Shown piece by piece: positions 75 to 7,971 of a stretch of 64,000 bases of DNA (position 1 is the first letter of the stretch; the number at the start of each line of letters is the position of its first letter). Under the pieces are notes generated by a model. That model worked only from the letters and a program-made list of their open reading frames with translations. It was not told the origin of the DNA and did not search any database. The stretch covers positions 1 to 64,000 of the forward strand of contig NZ_VHIB01000014.1 in assembly GCF_008087345.1 (NCBI RefSeq), written 5' to 3'. Made by a program: the position numbers and the translations under genes. The DNA is from Nocardioides caldifontis. Lineage in GTDB: Bacteria; Actinomycetota; Actinomycetes; Propionibacteriales; Nocardioidaceae.

Positions 75-248
75 CTACGGCACGCCCACGACACCGTCAG
101 CAGAGCGATCGTCGGTGGATCCGGGCTTAGTAGTGACGTAGACGTCGTTGCCGTTGGAGAGCACCCGCCAGCCAGGGAGGCGGAGACCAAGGCTTCGATC
201 GTCACCATCGAGCTCGAAGGCGAATCGTAGGACGGTCTTCTTTCCCAT
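75..248 (-). CDS. 57-aa small protein downstream of the Gabija-like genes
   Basis: An intact 58-codon frame starts at ATG 248-246, with GAGGG four bases upstream, and ends at TAG 77-75. The protein begins MGKKTVLRFAFELDGDD and has a central stretch with GWRVLSNGNDVYVTT followed by a hydrophilic tail. There is no signal peptide or membrane segment. It lies on the same strand as the helicase gene, 128 bp after its stop, so it could be the last gene of the defence operon. I do not recognise the family. The compact charged N-half with alternating hydrophobics suggests a small beta-rich domain (inference). The main risk is that it is a chance frame. Confidence 0.5.
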   Translation of the reverse strand: MGKKTVLRFAFELDGDDRSLGLRLPGWRVLSNGNDVYVTTKPGSTDDRSADGVVGVP

Positions 249-376
249 CTAGCCCTCAGTTGTGTGGCGGTTTCGCTCAGATCTACGTTGCCAGCGCCAG
301 CGCCGGAATGACGCTTAGTGAAAGCGGCACAACGCACCCGATGTCGAGAGTCGCGATCCTTGGTCGAATCATGTGT

Positions 377-2092
377 TCAAGACCGCGGCTCGACTGGTGT
401 CAGTGGAGTCGCGCCCTCGGGGCGGATGAATACGACCCAATGCCGGGCCCGGGTGATCGCAACCCGAAGGAGCCGGCGGTCAGCATCGGCCTGCCGGGGA
501 TCTCCGCTGATCAGAGGGCCGTCATAGCGGCCCTCAACGATGACGACGGCGTCGAACTCCTTACCCTTCGATTTGTGCATCGTCATCACACTTACCGCCG
601 GCGGATCCTGTCGGGCGGCGTTGACTGCTTCCTCTGCGAGGGCAACTCGGACTGAACCGACGGCGTCCCGATACCCGACGTCACCGTCCCATGCGTCGAG
701 CAGTGCCCAGGCGAGCGCGTCGGTCGCGTGCAGTAACCGCAACAGCCTGACCTGCTTGAAGACCTCGTTGAGCTCGGTCGATCCGGCGAGCCGGGCGCGC
801 GCTGCCTGCCAGTCGCGGACTGGTTGACCTGTGAACTCAGTTGAGTCTCCGGCGCGCTCGATGAGGATCTTCGCCGTTTTTGAGGACGGCGCACGTCCGG
901 CGCGGACAGCCTCGATAGCGCGGTCCGTGGTCGCGATTGTGCGGCGTGCACCGTGCGTGCCGCGACCAACTTTCACTCGGTAGTACTCGGCGATCTGCGT
1001 CAGCGTGTGGATGACTGCCTCTGCGGTGCTCAGGTGGGGCCATTCGAGAACACTGGCGACGACGAGCCCAGCGGAGGCGGCAAGCTCGGGGTCCCAGTGG
1101 AGGACGTGCTCGACCGGGGGCAGGACCGAGCTGTTGGGCATCGTCTGCTCGTGCTCGAGTGCTTCCGAGACCCGGGCCGCGAGCGAGTTGGCTCTTGTCA
1201 GAACAGCGATCGTCGGCGTCGGGCCGAGTTGCTGGCTGGCGGCCTGCGCCACCACAGCGACCGCCCAGTGCGCCATCAACTCTGGCGGCAGGCGGCGATA
1301 CGAACGGAAGCGCACGTCCTCTGGCGGCGTAGCGGGCCGGTTCCGGAGGACGGCGTTTGCGTAGTCCAGGAGCCCGCCGCCGGGGCTTCGGTGGTTGTCG
1401 GCCGAGAGGTCGAAGGTCGTCGGGCGCAGGAACTGCTTGGCCTCGGACAACCTGTGCTCGTCGACTCCGTCGAGGTGCTCGAAGATCCGCTGGTCGGGAT
1501 CGGCGAGGCACAGCACGGTGCTCTCGCTGGCGAACGCTTGGACGACCCGCCATTGGTCACGGTTGGTGTCTTGGAACTCGTCGACGATCACGAGCGGGTA
1601 CATGGCGCTGTAGAGCGAACGGACGGTGTCCGAGCCCTCGAGCAGGCTCGCGGCCGTAGGCGCAAGGGTGTCGAAGACAAAGACCGACTCTTCTCGTGCC
1701 AATCGGATCGTTTCCGTCTGCCAGTCACCGACGTGGTCGGCGCGGAGTTGGGACTCGCGCTCGGGTGTGATGAACCTGGCGGGTTTCCCGGTCAGGAGCC
1801 GAGCATGCGACCTGACGACGTCGAGGAAGAACGCGTGGAAGGTGCGGACTTCGATCCGCTCGCGGTCGCCGCGACTCAGGACGCCGACCATCCGGTCGGT
1901 GACCTGACGTACGGCAGCACGAGAGAAGGACAGGAACAGAACTCGCTGATCCAGCTGCAGCTGGGGCAGGCTCTCACGTGCCTTCCACAGCGCAATGGTC
2001 GTCTTGCCGCATCCCGGGCCGCCCTCGATGAGCACGTGGCCGACGGCGTCGAGAATGGCCCGTCGCGTCTCGTCGAGCTGGAGCTGTCCCAC
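377..2092 (-). CDS. UvrD/Rep-family helicase, GajB-like (Gabija defence)
   Basis: The 571-aa protein has the full superfamily 1A helicase set: Walker A GGPGCGKTT (about residues 24-32), motif Ia around FLSFSRAAV, the DEXX motif VDEFQDT (about 170), the nucleotide-sensing ADPDQRIFE, motif V TMHKSKGKEFD (about 500) and motif VI RVAITRARH near the C-terminus. GTG at 2092 directly follows the TAG stop of the upstream OLD-nuclease gene with no gap, so the two are translated as a pair. In Gabija systems GajB is a UvrD-like helicase that partners GajA; this order and pairing match. It is somewhat longer than the usual GajB of about 500 aa. A housekeeping UvrD/PcrA is unlikely because of the short length and the fixed partner. 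Confidence 0.85.
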   Translation of the reverse strand: MGQLQLDETRRAILDAVGHVLIEGGPGCGKTTIALWKARESLPQLQLDQRVLFLSFSRAAVRQVTDRMVGVLSRGDRERIEVRTFHAFFLDVVRSHARLLTGKPARFITPERESQLRADHVGDWQTETIRLAREESVFVFDTLAPTAASLLEGSDTVRSLYSAMYPLVIVDEFQDTNRDQWRVVQAFASESTVLCLADPDQRIFEHLDGVDEHRLSEAKQFLRPTTFDLSADNHRSPGGGLLDYANAVLRNRPATPPEDVRFRSYRRLPPELMAHWAVAVVAQAASQQLGPTPTIAVLTRANSLAARVSEALEHEQTMPNSSVLPPVEHVLHWDPELAASAGLVVASVLEWPHLSTAEAVIHTLTQIAEYYRVKVGRGTHGARRTIATTDRAIEAVRAGRAPSSKTAKILIERAGDSTEFTGQPVRDWQAARARLAGSTELNEVFKQVRLLRLLHATDALAWALLDAWDGDVGYRDAVGSVRVALAEEAVNAARQDPPAVSVMTMHKSKGKEFDAVVIVEGRYDGPLISGDPRQADADRRLLRVAITRARHWVVFIRPEGATPLTPVEPRS

Positions 2093-4024
2093 CTAAGTTC
2101 CGCCGCCCGCGCTCGGGGCGACAGCGCCGGAGCTATCGGCATTTGAGTTGGCAGGCTCATCGGTCGGCTGCGACTCGCCGGGGGAGGCCGCGGCCGAAGG
2201 GTCGCCGGCCAGATCGGTGGATGCTGTCGGTACAGCTGCTGGCGCCAGGTCAGCATCGATGAGGGTTAGGAACGCAACCAGTGAGGCGGGCAGCTCGGTC
2301 ATGTCACGGGCCTCCCCGACGAGCAGAGGCGCGTAGCCGTCGTTGGCGCCCTTGCGTGCGATCAGGACCTTCCGCACGAGGTGGTCGACCGCATCGTCGT
2401 CACTGCCCGGGGCTAGGTAGCCGCAGTGGACCGGGTAGTCCTCCCTGGTGCTGACCGTGGCCAGGAATCGCCGCTTGACGGCAGCCGGAACTTCGGCGAC
2501 GAGCAGGTCTTCGACTCCGGCGTACGGGATCTCCTGGTAGTGGGTGAAGTCGTCGGTCTTTTGGACCCGGTCCTCGTCGAAGGGGGTGGTGGGTGTGTCA
2601 TGGATGCCGTAGACGGGCTTGCCGAGGCTCTTGAACAACGGCGCGTAGAGGGGAACCGAGCTGTCGTTGCCGGCGTCGAAGACTGATATGCCGGCTAGGT
2701 CGAGGTGGGTGTATCCGAGGGAAGAGTCGGCGTCGAGCACGTCGGAGACGACCGGAATCAGCGCCGCCTCGGTGGCGCCTTCGACCACTAGGACGGCCCG
2801 CGCCAGGACCGCCTCGGCGAACTGGCGCCGGTTCTCTCGGTACCGTTTGACCTTGAAGTCGGTCGGGAGCTCGATCGGCCGGCCGGACAGCTTCCCGGAA
2901 GGGTCGCGGGAGACCACCAGGAGGCTCTCCGGGGTGAAGCGCTCGATGACGTAGGGCGAGTGTGACGTCACGATTGCCTGTCCCATGCGGCGGGTGACGA
3001 AGTCGACCAACCTCCGCTGCGCGTGCGGGGGAATGGCGATCTCGGGCTCTTCCATCGCAAAGATGACGGAGTCGTCGCCCTTGAGTTCGGCGATGTAGGT
3101 GAGTAGTGCAAAGACGAGCAGGTTCAGAGATCCGGTGCTCAGCCGGTTGAAGGGAACCGGGGTCGATCCGGGGTTGCTGGCGATGAACACCCGCAGCGTC
3201 TCGCGGATGTTCTCGCGAGTCAGATCGGAGGGGTGGACCTGCACATCCTCGCCAGTGGCGCTCAGTGAGAGGAACCTCGCGATCCGGTCCTCCACACCGT
3301 CCAGAGTGCTCTCGAGGCTCGAGCCGGCCGCGAGGTCGACCTCAGCGAGGTCCTTGCGCACCTTCTCCCACAGCTCGAGGCCAGTGTCAGTCTCCAGCCG
3401 GATGATGGTGTCGAGCAGCGAGCCACGCTGGAAGCTGAGGGCTCGGGAGCCGGTGCGATTGGGCCGTAGATAGAGGTATCCGCAGTGCCGCTTGTCATCC
3501 CTGGTGAACACTCGACGGCCGCCGCCGAGCTCGTCGGTCTCGGTGGCGAGGTCGTCAACGACCGGCTCGGGGTGGGCGAAGAAGGTGCCCCCCTCAAAGT
3601 CATCCTCGGCCGGGTTGAACCGGCCACAGAAGAGCAGCGGCAGGCACCATGGGTGCGCGTCAGCCAGGTCGATCGTGTCCGGCTGGGTGTCCGCGAAGTC
3701 GTTGAGCTCGTGGTTCCACTTCCGGAGGTGGCCTCCGAACCGCCGCTCAGCACGGGCGGACAGGTCGACCAAGACGACCTCGATGAGGATGCTCGGGTCG
3801 TCGCCGGTGTCGTCATCCGTGAGGTAGCGCGAGTCGTGGAAGTCGTACTCGTCGACAACCGGCCGGCGGAGCATGCGCTCTGGGCCGAGGACCAGGTCGA
3901 GTGCCTCGCAGATCGTCGACTTGCCGATGCTGTTGGCGCCCACAAGCAAGGTGTGCCCGTCGAGGAGGAGCTCGCCCTCCTTGACGCCGCGAAAGTTCCT
4001 GATCCGGATGCGTCGAACCCGCAC
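2093..4024 (-). CDS. OLD-family ATPase/TOPRIM nuclease, GajA-like (Gabija defence)
   Basis: The protein of about 643 aa starts at GTG 4024 (VRVRRIRIRNFRG). An upstream in-frame ATG at 4396 would overlap the preceding gene by 200 bp and encodes no conserved sequence. The N-half is an SMC/OLD-type ATPase: Walker A GANSIGKST (29-37), an ABC-like signature around RLSTGSLN, Walker B with MEEPEIAIPP (about 320) and an H-loop TSHSPYV (about 350). The C-half is a TOPRIM nuclease domain with the acidic motif VVEGATEAAL (about 411) and later GIHDTP (about 471), which shows one Asp instead of the usual DxD. A tail rich in Ala, Ser and Pro ends the protein. GajA is a sequence-specific nicking nuclease of the Gabija anti-phage system, and GajB follows immediately. 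Confidence 0.83.
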   Translation of the reverse strand: MRVRRIRIRNFRGVKEGELLLDGHTLLVGANSIGKSTICEALDLVLGPERMLRRPVVDEYDFHDSRYLTDDDTGDDPSILIEVVLVDLSARAERRFGGHLRKWNHELNDFADTQPDTIDLADAHPWCLPLLFCGRFNPAEDDFEGGTFFAHPEPVVDDLATETDELGGGRRVFTRDDKRHCGYLYLRPNRTGSRALSFQRGSLLDTIIRLETDTGLELWEKVRKDLAEVDLAAGSSLESTLDGVEDRIARFLSLSATGEDVQVHPSDLTRENIRETLRVFIASNPGSTPVPFNRLSTGSLNLLVFALLTYIAELKGDDSVIFAMEEPEIAIPPHAQRRLVDFVTRRMGQAIVTSHSPYVIERFTPESLLVVSRDPSGKLSGRPIELPTDFKVKRYRENRRQFAEAVLARAVLVVEGATEAALIPVVSDVLDADSSLGYTHLDLAGISVFDAGNDSSVPLYAPLFKSLGKPVYGIHDTPTTPFDEDRVQKTDDFTHYQEIPYAGVEDLLVAEVPAAVKRRFLATVSTREDYPVHCGYLAPGSDDDAVDHLVRKVLIARKGANDGYAPLLVGEARDMTELPASLVAFLTLIDADLAPAAVPTASTDLAGDPSAAASPGESQPTDEPANSNADSSGAVAPSAGGGT

Positions 4025-4190
4025 GCCTTGCCCGTCCCTTGAGTGTGCGCCGTCCCCCGATCGGCCGGCTCGCGGCAGAACCATGCCACATCGGTGGCTC
4101 CCCTGCCGCCATTCGACACGGAACGAAGCGGGGCGGGCCCGGGGCCGCTCGATCCATGCGCGCGCCGCGGCATCCGGCAACGGCACAAAC

Positions 4191-5369
4191 TCAGTCCACG
4201 AGCCTGAGCACCGGCTTCTCGTCGCGCCACCCCACAAGGTTGCGGATCCTTTGAGGTGATAGGCGCAGTTCGTCTGCGAGATCGCCGAGAGTGACGCCGT
4301 GCTGGCCTGCGAGCGCGACGGCGGCGGTGAGCAGCTTCGGCACTTCCCCGGGGTAGTCAGCCACTGGTTGCGGATGGAACAAGCCGAGACCGGCAAGCTG
4401 GCTGTGTCTCTGGAAGGCGCGGCGATAGGCGGCCTCAGAGATGAGGCCCACCTCGCGGCAGCGGTAGATCATGGAACTGACGCTTACCCCCCATTCGGCC
4501 GACAGCTTGGCGAGTGCGTTGAGGTCCATCCGGCGTGGAAGAAGCGGGTGGACCTCCGCGCTTGGGGTTAGGAACTCCGCCGCGAACTGATCTGCCTGAC
4601 GTTCTTGCTCGGCGTCCCCGGGCTCTGCGTCCCCATGAAGGATGAGGTGCCCGAGCTCGTGTGCAGCAGTGAAGCGATGCCGGTAGACGTCGTCGGCGCG
4701 ATCGGGAGTGAGAACAATGATCGGACGTGGCAGGTGCGAGGTAGAGAACGCATCGACCGAGGCAGTGGCATCACCCGCGAACGGCGTCAGCGTGACGATG
4801 ATTCCGTGCTGCTCTAGGAGCCGCACCATCCGCGGAATACGTCCCGGGGGCAGGCCCCAGCGCTGTCGCAGTTCGCGGGCGGCCTTGACCGGATCACACG
4901 GCATGATGCTCTGGTCGATTTCGCCCGCAGAGAAGCCGGGCAGGTCGACAGGAGGGATCTGGACGAGTCGCTCGAGGGCATGGGTGAGCTCCCAGACTTG
5001 CTCGGTGAATGCGAGCGCTCGCTCGCGCTCGCGAGCTGGCGTTCGCCGGAGGCTGCGAAAGTGTGCCGCCGAACCTTCAAGACGTGCGTACGGACGCCCC
5101 GCGATGAAGAATTCGGGCGGAAGATCGAAGAGTTCCGCCAGGCGTCGCAGGTGGTCAGGCCGAGGAGGGTGGGAGCCCGATTCCCACTGGCCGACCGCAA
5201 CGGCCGACACCTTCAAGGCTTCGGCGGCACCCTTCTTCGTCATCGCAGCCAAGCGCCGCGCCTGGGTAAGCCTCGCCGGATCGAATACTCCAGGCGCGGC
5301 CCCACCGCTCGTCGAAACAGGCTCCTGAAAGAGCGTCAGATGGGAGGCAACGTCCTTGCGACGTGTCAC
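4191..5369 (-). CDS. XRE HTH - ImmA/IrrE metallopeptidase fusion
   Basis: The 392-aa protein has an N-terminal Cro/C1-type HTH (about residues 30-90, around AAEALKVSAVAVGQWESG) and a central ImmA/IrrE zinc-peptidase domain with AAHELGHLIL (HExxH, about 237-241). Such fusions often bind DNA and cleave a partner repressor after a stress signal (family knowledge). It sits between the unknown 272-aa gene, which it overlaps by 4 bp, and the GajA-like gene 167 bp downstream, all on one strand. That suggests it controls, or is a sensing part of, the defence operon. Which target it cleaves is not visible here. Confidence 0.85.
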   Translation of the reverse strand: MTRRKDVASHLTLFQEPVSTSGGAAPGVFDPARLTQARRLAAMTKKGAAEALKVSAVAVGQWESGSHPPRPDHLRRLAELFDLPPEFFIAGRPYARLEGSAAHFRSLRRTPARERERALAFTEQVWELTHALERLVQIPPVDLPGFSAGEIDQSIMPCDPVKAARELRQRWGLPPGRIPRMVRLLEQHGIIVTLTPFAGDATASVDAFSTSHLPRPIIVLTPDRADDVYRHRFTAAHELGHLILHGDAEPGDAEQERQADQFAAEFLTPSAEVHPLLPRRMDLNALAKLSAEWGVSVSSMIYRCREVGLISEAAYRRAFQRHSQLAGLGLFHPQPVADYPGEVPKLLTAAVALAGQHGVTLGDLADELRLSPQRIRNLVGWRDEKPVLRLVD

Positions 5370-6184
5370 TCGCCCTCAGCCTCACTCCCAGCCGCGAGCG
5401 GTTCGACCTCTTCCTCAGCGGAAGGAGACTCTTCGCGCTGCGGGCGCAGCCTCAGCCCAAGGTCGTCATCCACACCAATCGCGTCGAACCGCTCGACATT
5501 CGAAGCGCTGCGGACGGCATGCAACGGAGGCGCGATGGGCTCCTGCTGGTCCAAGTCGAGGATCCTCAGAGGCTGCCAGTGCGGCCAGGACACCTCGCCG
5601 ATGACGTGATCCTCGATCAGTAATTCTCCAAGGCCGAGCTCGAAGATGCCGTCGACGGTCGAACCGAAGCCGATGACGACGGCGCAGCCGGCCTTAGACA
5701 TCTCCTCGAACGCCTCCATCTCCTCGGCGTAGCGTTGGTCAGCAGCGTCGGGGTCTTCGATATCGTCGATACTGCGCTGGTCGTCGGGACGGCGTGGAGC
5801 AACCCCGAGGATCGCCACGCGCAGCTGCGACATGTCAATCCGACATTCCTGCCTGCGCTTGCGCGGGTCCGACGACACTCGAAGCGGCACGAGGACGACA
5901 TTGGTCTCGTCGATGACTGGGAATTCGAAGCGACTGCGGACCCCGGCCGGACGGCGCAGAACGACGCCCGGGATCTTGCGGAGCCTGTCATTGAGCATCT
6001 CGTGCTGCGCCACGAAGAGGGTGTGCCCGTAAGCGTCCTTGGACGTCGACGACTGCGCCAGTTGTGCTCGCACGGCGTCGGCCTGAGCATCGCGCATCGC
6101 GAGTGAGATCTCGTGCTGAATCCTTGCGCTCTGCATCCCAAGCCGCCTTCGAGCCCAGGGACTGCCCCCGTTGCCATCACTCAC
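5366..6184 (-). CDS. Hypothetical 272-aa companion of XRE-ImmA
   Basis: GTG at 6184 has a strong ribosome site (GGAGGGG, 7 bases upstream) and gives 272 aa; the frame runs further upstream but into non-coding sequence. The N-terminus is helical and charged (around QHEISLAMRDAQADAVRAQL), the middle is mixed alpha/beta with GVVLRRPAGVRSRFEFPVID, and a segment FGSTVDGIFELGLGELLIED precedes an acidic tail rich in Glu. There is no membrane segment. It overlaps the XRE-ImmA start by 4 bp, so the two are co-translated. I do not recognise the family. As first gene of the defence operon it may be the cleavage substrate or sensor partner of the ImmA protein (inference only). Confidence 0.7.
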   Translation of the reverse strand: MSDGNGGSPWARRRLGMQSARIQHEISLAMRDAQADAVRAQLAQSSTSKDAYGHTLFVAQHEMLNDRLRKIPGVVLRRPAGVRSRFEFPVIDETNVVLVPLRVSSDPRKRRQECRIDMSQLRVAILGVAPRRPDDQRSIDDIEDPDAADQRYAEEMEAFEEMSKAGCAVVIGFGSTVDGIFELGLGELLIEDHVIGEVSWPHWQPLRILDLDQQEPIAPPLHAVRSASNVERFDAIGVDDDLGLRLRPQREESPSAEEEVEPLAAGSEAEGE

Positions 6185-6277: not shown

Positions 6278-6722
6278 TTTCGAGCACCCGTGGGGGATTG
6301 CCAGGCTCCGGCAGTCACGAACACGACGCTGCTGACTCGGCCGGCACGGCGGCCGCGCTGACGACCCCGGGCGAGCAAGCACAATGGCAGCCAGCAGGTT
6401 CGGACAGATCCGGAACCACCAACATCGGGCGCTCGGGCGAACGCCAGGGCCTGATCGACCTCCTGTCGAAGGGCGGAGAGCCCGCGTCATAGTGGGCTAC
6501 TAGCCGATTCCCGTAGGGCCGGTGTCTGGCCAGACTCGGCTTAGGTGCTCGGCGGGTTCGCTCTCTATTGGGCTGCCCACCTGTGCGCGGGTGTGGCTCG
6601 CAACCGGTCTGCAGTCCGCCGGGCACCGCTGACGAGGCGTGGCTCAAGAAGGGACTGCCCTGCTCGTAGTAGCAATGCCCACCTCGCCGTCCACGTCGGT
6701 ACGAGCACAGGCGGGAGCAGCC
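6278..6722. other. Gene-free stretch: defence promoter flank and IS110 left non-coding end
   Basis: I see no convincing gene between the defence promoter and the transposase start at 6723. The part next to the transposase (roughly 6491-6722) is the expected place of the long left non-coding end of IS110-group elements, which in studied members (for example IS621) encodes a structured bridge RNA guiding target and donor choice. Complementary short segments are present, but I could not fold the sequence or define the element's end. GGGAG lies just ahead of the ATG. Confidence 0.35.
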
Positions 6723-7971
6723 ATGGAGCAGGTCATCATCGGGGTCGATCCTCACAAGCTGTCAGCGACTATCGAGGTCGTCGACCACCACGAACCGTTG
6801 CTGGGTTCTGGTCGGTTCGCCACCGATCGGGCCGGCTACCGAGCTATGCGGACCTACGCGAAGTCATGGCCGAACCGGGTTTGGGCGGTCGAGGGCGCCA
6901 ACGGTGTCGGACGCCCGTTGGCCCAGCGGCTGCTCGAGGCTCGTGAGCAGGTCGTCGATGTTCCAGCCAAGCTCGCGGCCCGCATCCGGCGCCCGCCACG
7001 CGGGCCGCAGCGCCAGGCGCTCCTTGCTCTTCGACACCGGGCACAACCGCAAGACCGACGCCCGAGACGCCCACTCGATCGCGATCGTCGCTGTCCGCAC
7101 CAAGACTCTGCGGCTGCTGCAGGTCGACGGCGAGCTCGAGGCCCTGCGGATGCTCACCGACCGCCGCGAGGCGCTGACTCGGCGTCGGGTCCAGACCGTC
7201 GATCGGCTGCAGGCGCTCTTGGCCGAACTCCTGCCCGGACAAGCCAAACGCGACATCACCACCGGCCAGGCCAAGGCCATGCTCGCCTCTGTCCGTCCGC
7301 GGGACATCGCCGGGAGGACCCGTCGCCGCATCGCCGCCGACGAGCTGGCCGAACTGATCGCGGTCGAGGCGAAGATCAAGAAGGCCACCGCCGAGCTCAA
7401 GGCCATCGTGCTGGCCCGGGGCTCGAGGCTGATGGACATCCACGGCGTCGGTCCTGTGGTTGCCGCACGGATCCTGGCTGACGTCGGCGACGTCGCGCGC
7501 TTCGCCGACCGCAACCGGTTCGCTTCCTGGACCGGCACTGCACCGCTCGACGCATCCTCCGGCGAGCACGACCGTCACCGGCTGTCGCGAGCCGGGAACC
7601 GCCGGATGAACCACATGATCCACATCGCCGCGGTCACTCAGTTGCGCATCGACACCGACGGTCGGACCTACTACCGACACAAGCGAGCCGAGGGCAAGAA
7701 GCCCCTCGAGGCGCTTCGCTGCCTCAAGCGCAGGCTCTCCGACGTCATCTACCGGCAGCTCGTCGCTGACGCCGAACTCGCCGCCGGCACGAACTCCGAG
7801 GCGGGTCCGGGAGGGCACTGCGGGGCGTCTCAAGAATCCTGCGCGGCCGACCTGCCCCCGCACATCGACACTTCGGATCAGCCACTTCCCGGACCCGCAC
7901 AACCGACGCTACGCGCGGCATCGACCTCCCGGAAGTCCCGACGAAACAGAGTCCTCACCGCAGCCGGTTGA
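6723..7971 (+). pseudogene. IS110-family transposase, disrupted by a 37-bp insertion
   Basis: Two frames together encode a typical IS110 transposase. The first (6723 to about 6989) starts MEQVIIGVDPHK, with the first catalytic Asp, and contains AVEGANG with the Glu. The second (from 7027) carries FDTGHNRKTDARDAHS with the last two acidic residues of the DEDD set, then the C-terminal Tnp domain with IHGVGPVVAARILADVGD and a Ser-containing SSGEHDRH. Between them lie 37 bp (6990-7026); removing these restores one frame of about 403 aa, the usual family length. The DEDD site is thus split over two frames and the enzyme should be inactive. It sits between the defence operon and the conjugation genes. 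Confidence 0.85.

Follow-up and report, generated by a model that had tools for sequence, protein, structure and literature searches.

Two separable and probably defensive modules, a Gabija system and a RosmerTA-like gene pair, adjoin on an apparent conjugative element of Nocardioides caldifontis

Introduction

Do genes that lie directly upstream of a known anti-phage system, on the same strand, extend that system or are they only its neighbours? The question is raised by a locus of Nocardioides caldifontis (assembly GCF_008087345.1, contig NZ_VHIB01000014.1), of which we analysed positions 1 to 64,000 of the forward strand, a stretch of 64,000 nucleotides called the window below. All on the minus strand, and in the order of transcription, are found a gene for a 272-aa protein, a gene for an XRE-ImmA protein (an XRE helix-turn-helix (HTH) domain joined to an ImmA-like M78 peptidase), a gap of 166 bp, and the GajA and GajB genes of a Gabija system. 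The original prediction suggested that the locus, together with a downstream 57-aa gene, may be an inducible, protease-gated and extended Gabija variant. Our findings favour another answer, namely that two separate defence modules, Gabija and a RosmerTA-like pair, have probably been united on a conjugative element and are not one machine.

Results

A standard Gabija system

The GajA gene (2093..4024, minus strand; 643 aa, likely GTG start at 4024, stop codon at 2095-2093) is followed by the GajB gene (377..2092, minus strand; 571 aa), whose first base comes directly after the GajA stop with no gap. The earlier recognition of this stop-to-start pair as a Gabija core holds: PADLOC matches the two products over nearly their full length as GajA (PDLC00086, E = 2e-213) and GajB (PDLC00104, E = 6.2e-178). 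Pfam finds AAA_15 (1.5e-22) and an OLD-like TOPRIM domain (6.9e-10) in the first and UvrD-helicase (6.5e-25) in the second, and the motifs GANSIGKST (Walker A) and EEPE are present in GajA, and GGPGCGKTT and DEFQD in GajB. An OLD-family ATPase-TOPRIM gene followed without a gap by a gene for a UvrD/Rep-type helicase is also the arrangement of known Gabija, which is described in an excerpt of PMC10781630 as a complex of GajA and GajB that has both nuclease and helicase sites, its TOPRIM active site having an invariant Glu and a DxD motif. The window's GajA differs from Bacillus GajA in that, although the Glu (VVEG) and the first Asp of DxD align, the second Asp is replaced at the aligned place (HDTP), in a loop whose alignment is uncertain; this Asp is also missing in the eight GajA sequences nearest to the window's, and two distant GajA sequences have DND or DGD there. 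Judged by their sequences, GajA and GajB clearly make up a standard Gabija system. A preprint, as excerpted, proposes linear DNA devoid of RecBCD as the target of Gabija, and calls the system non-abortive in Pseudomonas (PMC12407980); an extract of another paper classes it as abortive (PMC12322248).

An RmrA-type protein with an upstream partner

The XRE-ImmA gene (4191..5369, minus strand) encodes, as predicted, an HTH-ImmA/IrrE fusion (HTH_3, 3.7e-11; Peptidase_M78, 8.4e-20), with the HExxH of the M78 peptidase present as HELGH from residue 237. Nineteen PADLOC families match this protein and the best 14 are all RmrA (PDLC03955, E = 1.4e-93); capP matches weakly (2e-17). The NCBIfam model NF052239 (spr1629-type repressor/antitoxin) matches residues 32-322 at 4.8e-29, but its score of 101.6 bits is below the cut-off of 335, so the protein is not a member of that family. 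RmrA is, according to an excerpt of PMC10440598, the antitoxin of RosmerTA, an ImmA protease paired with varied toxins; the same excerpt gives a toxin-first order for 58% of the ImmA/Rosmer cluster and phage defence for one pair. An earlier study, in the part available, placed Xre-COG2856 fusions in toxin-antitoxin-like operons (PMC2701414).

The 272-aa gene (5366..6184, minus strand) starts with GTG, has GGAGGGG just upstream, and shares 4 bp (GTGA) with the reading frame of the XRE-ImmA gene. The overlap reported earlier thus joins these two genes and does not reach GajA, which lies 166 bp away (4025..4190, minus strand); the pair is therefore linked to Gabija by strand and proximity only. 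A two-gene operon with the partner first and an XRE-M78 antitoxin that matches RmrA is the layout of RosmerTA.

A search of 196 order genomes gave 47 RmrA matches, in 45 of the genomes; relatives are present in 31 plasmid records too, and the phage records gave one distant match at E up to 1e-30. The RmrA nearest to the window's, in genome G201, is 69% identical, and no GajA- or GajB-like gene was found in locus L011. We scanned a genome collection with an RmrA alignment: at least 593 stretches matched, a relative was encoded in 547, and we kept the best 80 loci. Full 9-kb flanks were present in only 55 of these 80, so that the counts of GajA-, GajB- and OLD-like genes near them are lower bounds. 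With an uniterated profile of 10 seeds, 46 of the 80 loci have a member of the 272-aa family immediately before RmrA; these are all 45 nearest RmrA loci (L033-L077) plus L088. The iterated profile brings the total to 68, of which 58 match at E up to 1e-15 and 10 at 2e-7 to 7e-4, but the 22 partners so added are less sure, a second group having been absorbed, and 46 is the safer count. Twelve loci have no partner of this type. Eight of their partners were scanned against PADLOC, and three (L092, L093 and L105) match RmrT PDLC03941 (1.3e-33, 5.6e-28 and 4.8e-50), two (L107 and L110) match that model weakly (4e-4 and 0.025), and L082, L098 and L106 do not match RmrT.

Of 391 order genomes, 5 have a relative of the 272-aa protein (the window's own included), as do seven plasmid records; a profile search of 396 phylum genomes found 5 with one, again counting its own. 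An XRE-ImmA gene follows directly in the six plasmid records that were opened and in four of the order genomes. Among viral contigs, 45 stretches fit the family's peptide patterns and none encodes a relative. The 272-aa protein had been called a protein of no known family, and indeed no family in Pfam, PADLOC (E up to 0.01), NCBIfam or PHROGs matches it; it is no orphan, however, but a regular partner of RmrA-type XRE-ImmA proteins. As a separate observation, a Rhodococcus plasmid carries a shortened RmrA beside an insertion sequence (IS) of the IS3 type, with no annotated partner.

The pair and Gabija occur apart

The pair is seldom seen with Gabija. Genes for GajA and a UvrD-type helicase flank 2 of the 80 RmrA loci, in Kribbella pittospori (L033) and Rhodococcus sp. 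14-2483-1-2 (L077), and no GajA-GajB was detected near the other 78. From the Gabija side, a GajA search matched 5 of 391 order genomes, 2 of 396 phylum genomes (the window's own in both) and 15 plasmid records; the genome matches and the three plasmid records that were opened gave nine GajA-anchored loci. Five of the nine (G066, G221, G464 and plasmids of Novosphingobium and Pseudomonas) have no pair in the stretch fetched. G066 is a close relative of the window's system (68.7% identity in GajA, 66.6% in GajB), and the 31 kb fetched there, which extend about 8 kb on one side, contain no gene of RmrA type. A close relative thus lacks the two upstream genes in the stretch fetched while such pairs occur elsewhere with no detected GajA-GajB, the very situation that the original prediction had named as telling against itself.

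Five pairs of this type do adjoin Gabija: those of the window, G115, K. pittospori, Rhodococcus sp. 14-2483-1-2 and a Hoyosella plasmid. On a 75-row RmrA tree they amount to five changes, the maximum possible (mean after shuffling, 4.9), and they come in three arrangements, with the pair upstream of GajAB (window, Rhodococcus), downstream (G115, Kribbella) or divergent (Hoyosella). Among the five, GajA is close to the window's only in the window itself and G115, and the remaining three have distant or split types; in K. pittospori (L012 10233-13908) the GajA-like part beside the pair seems to be divided between two genes, one TOPRIM-like and the other ATPase-like with a degenerate Walker A. 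In an Arthrobacter plasmid, whose GajA is 67.9% identical to the window's, an unrelated RosmerTA (RmrT PDLC03935, 6.1e-42; RmrA PDLC03949, 3e-129) occupies the same position. With two joint loci detected in 80, GajAB loci that have no pair in the stretch fetched and five changes on the tree, an extended Gabija as a co-occurring unit is not supported.

The locus might still be inducible as a whole, if the XRE-ImmA protein repressed all of it until a stress signal, perceived together with the 272-aa protein, inactivated this repressor and allowed GajAB to be made. CapH/CapP and ImmR/ImmA are models elsewhere for such control, and in the CapH/CapP control of CBASS (cyclic oligonucleotide-based anti-phage signalling system) an HTH protein and an ImmA-like peptidase stand beside a defence system much as at this locus; here, however, one protein combines HTH and peptidase and is coupled to a second, and the adjoining system is Gabija rather than CBASS. 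The single strand with the pair in first place, an order repeated in Rhodococcus sp. 14-2483-1-2, would fit this idea, as would the finding, in an excerpt of PMC12407980, that the native 250-bp sequence upstream of a Pseudomonas Gabija lowers its activity and hence that Gabija can be regulated. The downstream and divergent arrangements do not fit it, nor do the 78 RmrA loci with no detected GajA-GajB or the pairless G066. A shared operator was also rejected: no k-mer is common to the upstream regions of the pair and of GajA beyond the level of shuffled sequence, and there is no palindrome of arm 6 in the 166 bp before GajA (promoter and terminator scans, with 0 and 1 sites, were uninformative). 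The inducible, protease-gated variant is thus unsupported, and we regard it as very unlikely.

Alternatively, the pair could stand guard over Gabija, as a toxin-antitoxin pair that is triggered when a phage disables Gabija and kills the cell as a second layer. Layered defence of this kind is known from PrrC/RloC, which guard restriction-modification (RM) systems (PMC12322248, in part), and the five independent adjacencies, with the unrelated RosmerTA in the same position as a sixth case, are what a guard might leave behind. Yet many other defence genes are found next to the pair, mostly with no detected Gabija: the 145 proteins scanned near 39 pair loci (up to two per side, passing length and coding filters) include, besides GajA-like proteins, AbiD (2), MAD2 (3), single matches to Thoeris, Hachiman, a type IIG RM system and DrmMI, and other defence proteins. 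We consider a guarding role in this locus to be unlikely, and the wider proposal, that RosmerTA-type pairs have been recruited repeatedly and independently to provide a suicidal second layer once a phage disables or saturates GajAB, to be very improbable.

The adjacency of pair and Gabija does exceed random placement, in several independent instances, because RmrA is present in just 45 of the 196 order genomes; to this extent the proposed tie between the extra genes and Gabija survives, but not as one system. Clustering in defence islands explains the adjacency with no special bond. In literature on Gabija with ImmA/XRE regulators or on RosmerTA with Gabija, titles and abstract openings do not report it, which is no proof of absence. 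Other neighbours of Gabija were seen as well: in G221, G115 and G053 (L021, L022 and L023) GajAB is preceded by two genes that we take to be pglZ and brxL of BREX (bacteriophage exclusion), and in G221 dynamin-like genes come after GajAB, the first of which matches LeoBC in PADLOC (3e-43), so that a BREX-Gabija-Leo composite is possible there.

Predicted fold of the 272-aa protein

By sequence, the 272-aa family gave nothing significant against the PDB. An AlphaFold2 model from 48 rows (predicted local distance difference test (pLDDT) 81.8, predicted template modelling score (pTM) 0.70) begins with two long helices, followed by three strands, two further helices and three more strands, and ends in an acidic tail of low confidence. 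A model of L105, a member of the RmrT group recognised by PADLOC (25 rows, 5 of them from that group), repeats this succession except that its first long helix is split, and the solved folds nearest to both models are in common: NaeI, EcoRV, HincII and the unrelated Rep15. The 272-aa model aligns to NaeI with Z 7.2 (root-mean-square deviation (rmsd) 4.0, 142 residues), to Rep15 with Z 6.4 (3.9, 136 residues) and to EcoRV with Z 6.3 (4.5, 138 residues), and the L105 model to NaeI with Z 6.8 (6.4, 145 residues) and to Rep15 with Z 6.8 also; values of this size fall in the range reached by unrelated models and are not above noise. Foldseek returned nothing at E up to 0.001 for the 272-aa model among PDB and viral models (best E 0.15). 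A restriction-endonuclease-like fold class is accordingly put forward as a hypothesis. No nuclease mechanism is claimed, because no catalytic motif is conserved in the family: the PD and (D/E)XK residues are not conserved in the 48-row alignment, and the third strand mostly reads L-x-P-x-R/K at the place of (D/E)XK. The RmrT of phage Kita acts on the membrane (excerpt of PMC10440598); the 272-aa sequence, unlike it, has no membrane segment visible by eye.

Profile-profile comparison connects the 272-aa family to RmrT through an intermediate group (88% and 90%), and the iterated profile matches the PADLOC-recognised RmrT proteins L120-L123 at 2.6e-6 to 4e-4. We rejected the latter as proof of homology, because the iterated profile had absorbed the intermediate group and a profile of the core family sets neither RmrT nor that group clearly apart from decoys, so that kinship by sequence is suggestive only. 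Since the model shares its order of elements and its nearest folds with that of a recognised RmrT, we take the 272-aa protein to be, in all probability, a toxin of divergent RmrT-like type. We call the module RosmerTA-like, and not RosmerTA, because this partner fits no described RmrT family.

Mobile context and the 57-aa reading frame

Genes for SSB, TraG/T4CP, an ArdC-type anti-restriction protein, Prim-Pol, a T2SSE ATPase and a TrwC-type relaxase lie at 10364-51655 of the window. Because of these conjugation and replication genes, we place the locus, from its gene content, on a conjugative plasmid or an integrative and conjugative element. In such surroundings the pair could be a non-toxic regulator of the mobile element, controlling transfer in the manner of ImmA/ImmR, and have no part in defence or toxin-antitoxin action; the 31 plasmid records with an RmrA relative agree with this, as do two genomes with the presumed toxin but no RmrA (below). 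The similarity to RmrA and the overlap of the two genes speak for a toxin-antitoxin pair instead, as do the pairs on genome contigs beside defence genes and the predicted fold shared with a PADLOC-recognised RmrT, and we judge the regulator explanation unlikely. The pair is adjoined by an IS110-family transposase reading frame (6904..7971, plus strand); over 6639-7971 it seems to be disrupted, as one of its translated frames contains two stops.

The first base of the window is also that of its contig (C9, in a genome of 4.8 Mb), and the sequence past the 57-aa open reading frame (75..248, minus strand) is unseen. This frame, originally counted as part of the locus, has no match in Pfam, PADLOC or NCBIfam. 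Two of the 196 order genomes besides its own match it weakly (E 1e-4 and 0.005), the better match being antisense to a gene read from its translation as phosphofructokinase, and a tblastn search (E up to 1) of the fetched Gabija loci revealed a copy in none except the window. With no credible relative, it is unsupported as a gene and was rejected as a component.

Discussion

We favour two modules side by side. The first (6184-4191) would be a two-gene, toxin-first RosmerTA-like operon, repressed through the HTH of the XRE-ImmA protein; the latter is likely an antitoxin and autorepressor that inactivates the 272-aa protein, the likely toxin, by binding or by proteolysis. Stress from infection might then free the toxin, and the cell would stop. 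The second module (4024-377), a class 2 OLD nuclease with a UvrD helicase, would attack phage DNA as Gabija, and the two would act independently. Gene content, the family membership of GajA, GajB and RmrA, the pairing of the 272-aa protein with RmrA and the separability of the modules are observed directly.

Several findings weigh against this reading. Relatives of the presumed toxin stand in two genomes that are probably of Streptomyces (L029 9087-9737; L032 9335-10042), with no RmrA in the flanks fetched there, which is odd for a toxin. At E up to 1, the RmrT models match neither the 272-aa protein nor nine of its relatives, the fold matches are tied with those to the unrelated Rep15, and direct profile-profile support (hhalign) for RmrT swings with the choice of rows, from 7% with five RmrT rows to 70% (E 4e-5) with nine. 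With the core-only profile RmrT scores E 0.05-0.6 and the intermediates 0.013-0.045, the best reversed decoy reaching 0.067. OLD-like genes, with no UvrD helicase detected, are near three more of the 80 RmrA loci (L058 11555-14626; L112 2294-4078; L045 1-500). An RmrA-type pair lies within about 3 kb in three of the nine GajA-anchored loci (the window, G115 and the Arthrobacter plasmid), and in a fourth, G053, it is about 12 kb from GajB; some functional coupling of the pair and Gabija is possible.

For the catalogue of defence systems, a would-be extended Gabija is struck from the new systems; the pair moves independently, so that adjacency here misleads. In its place stands a widespread actinobacterial family of presumed toxins that is paired with RmrA, is unnamed in the defence library searched and has a predicted RmrT-like fold. 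If this is borne out, the RosmerTA group would be enlarged, and its toxins would gain a structural hypothesis, a nuclease-like fold that is devoid of the usual catalytic residues.

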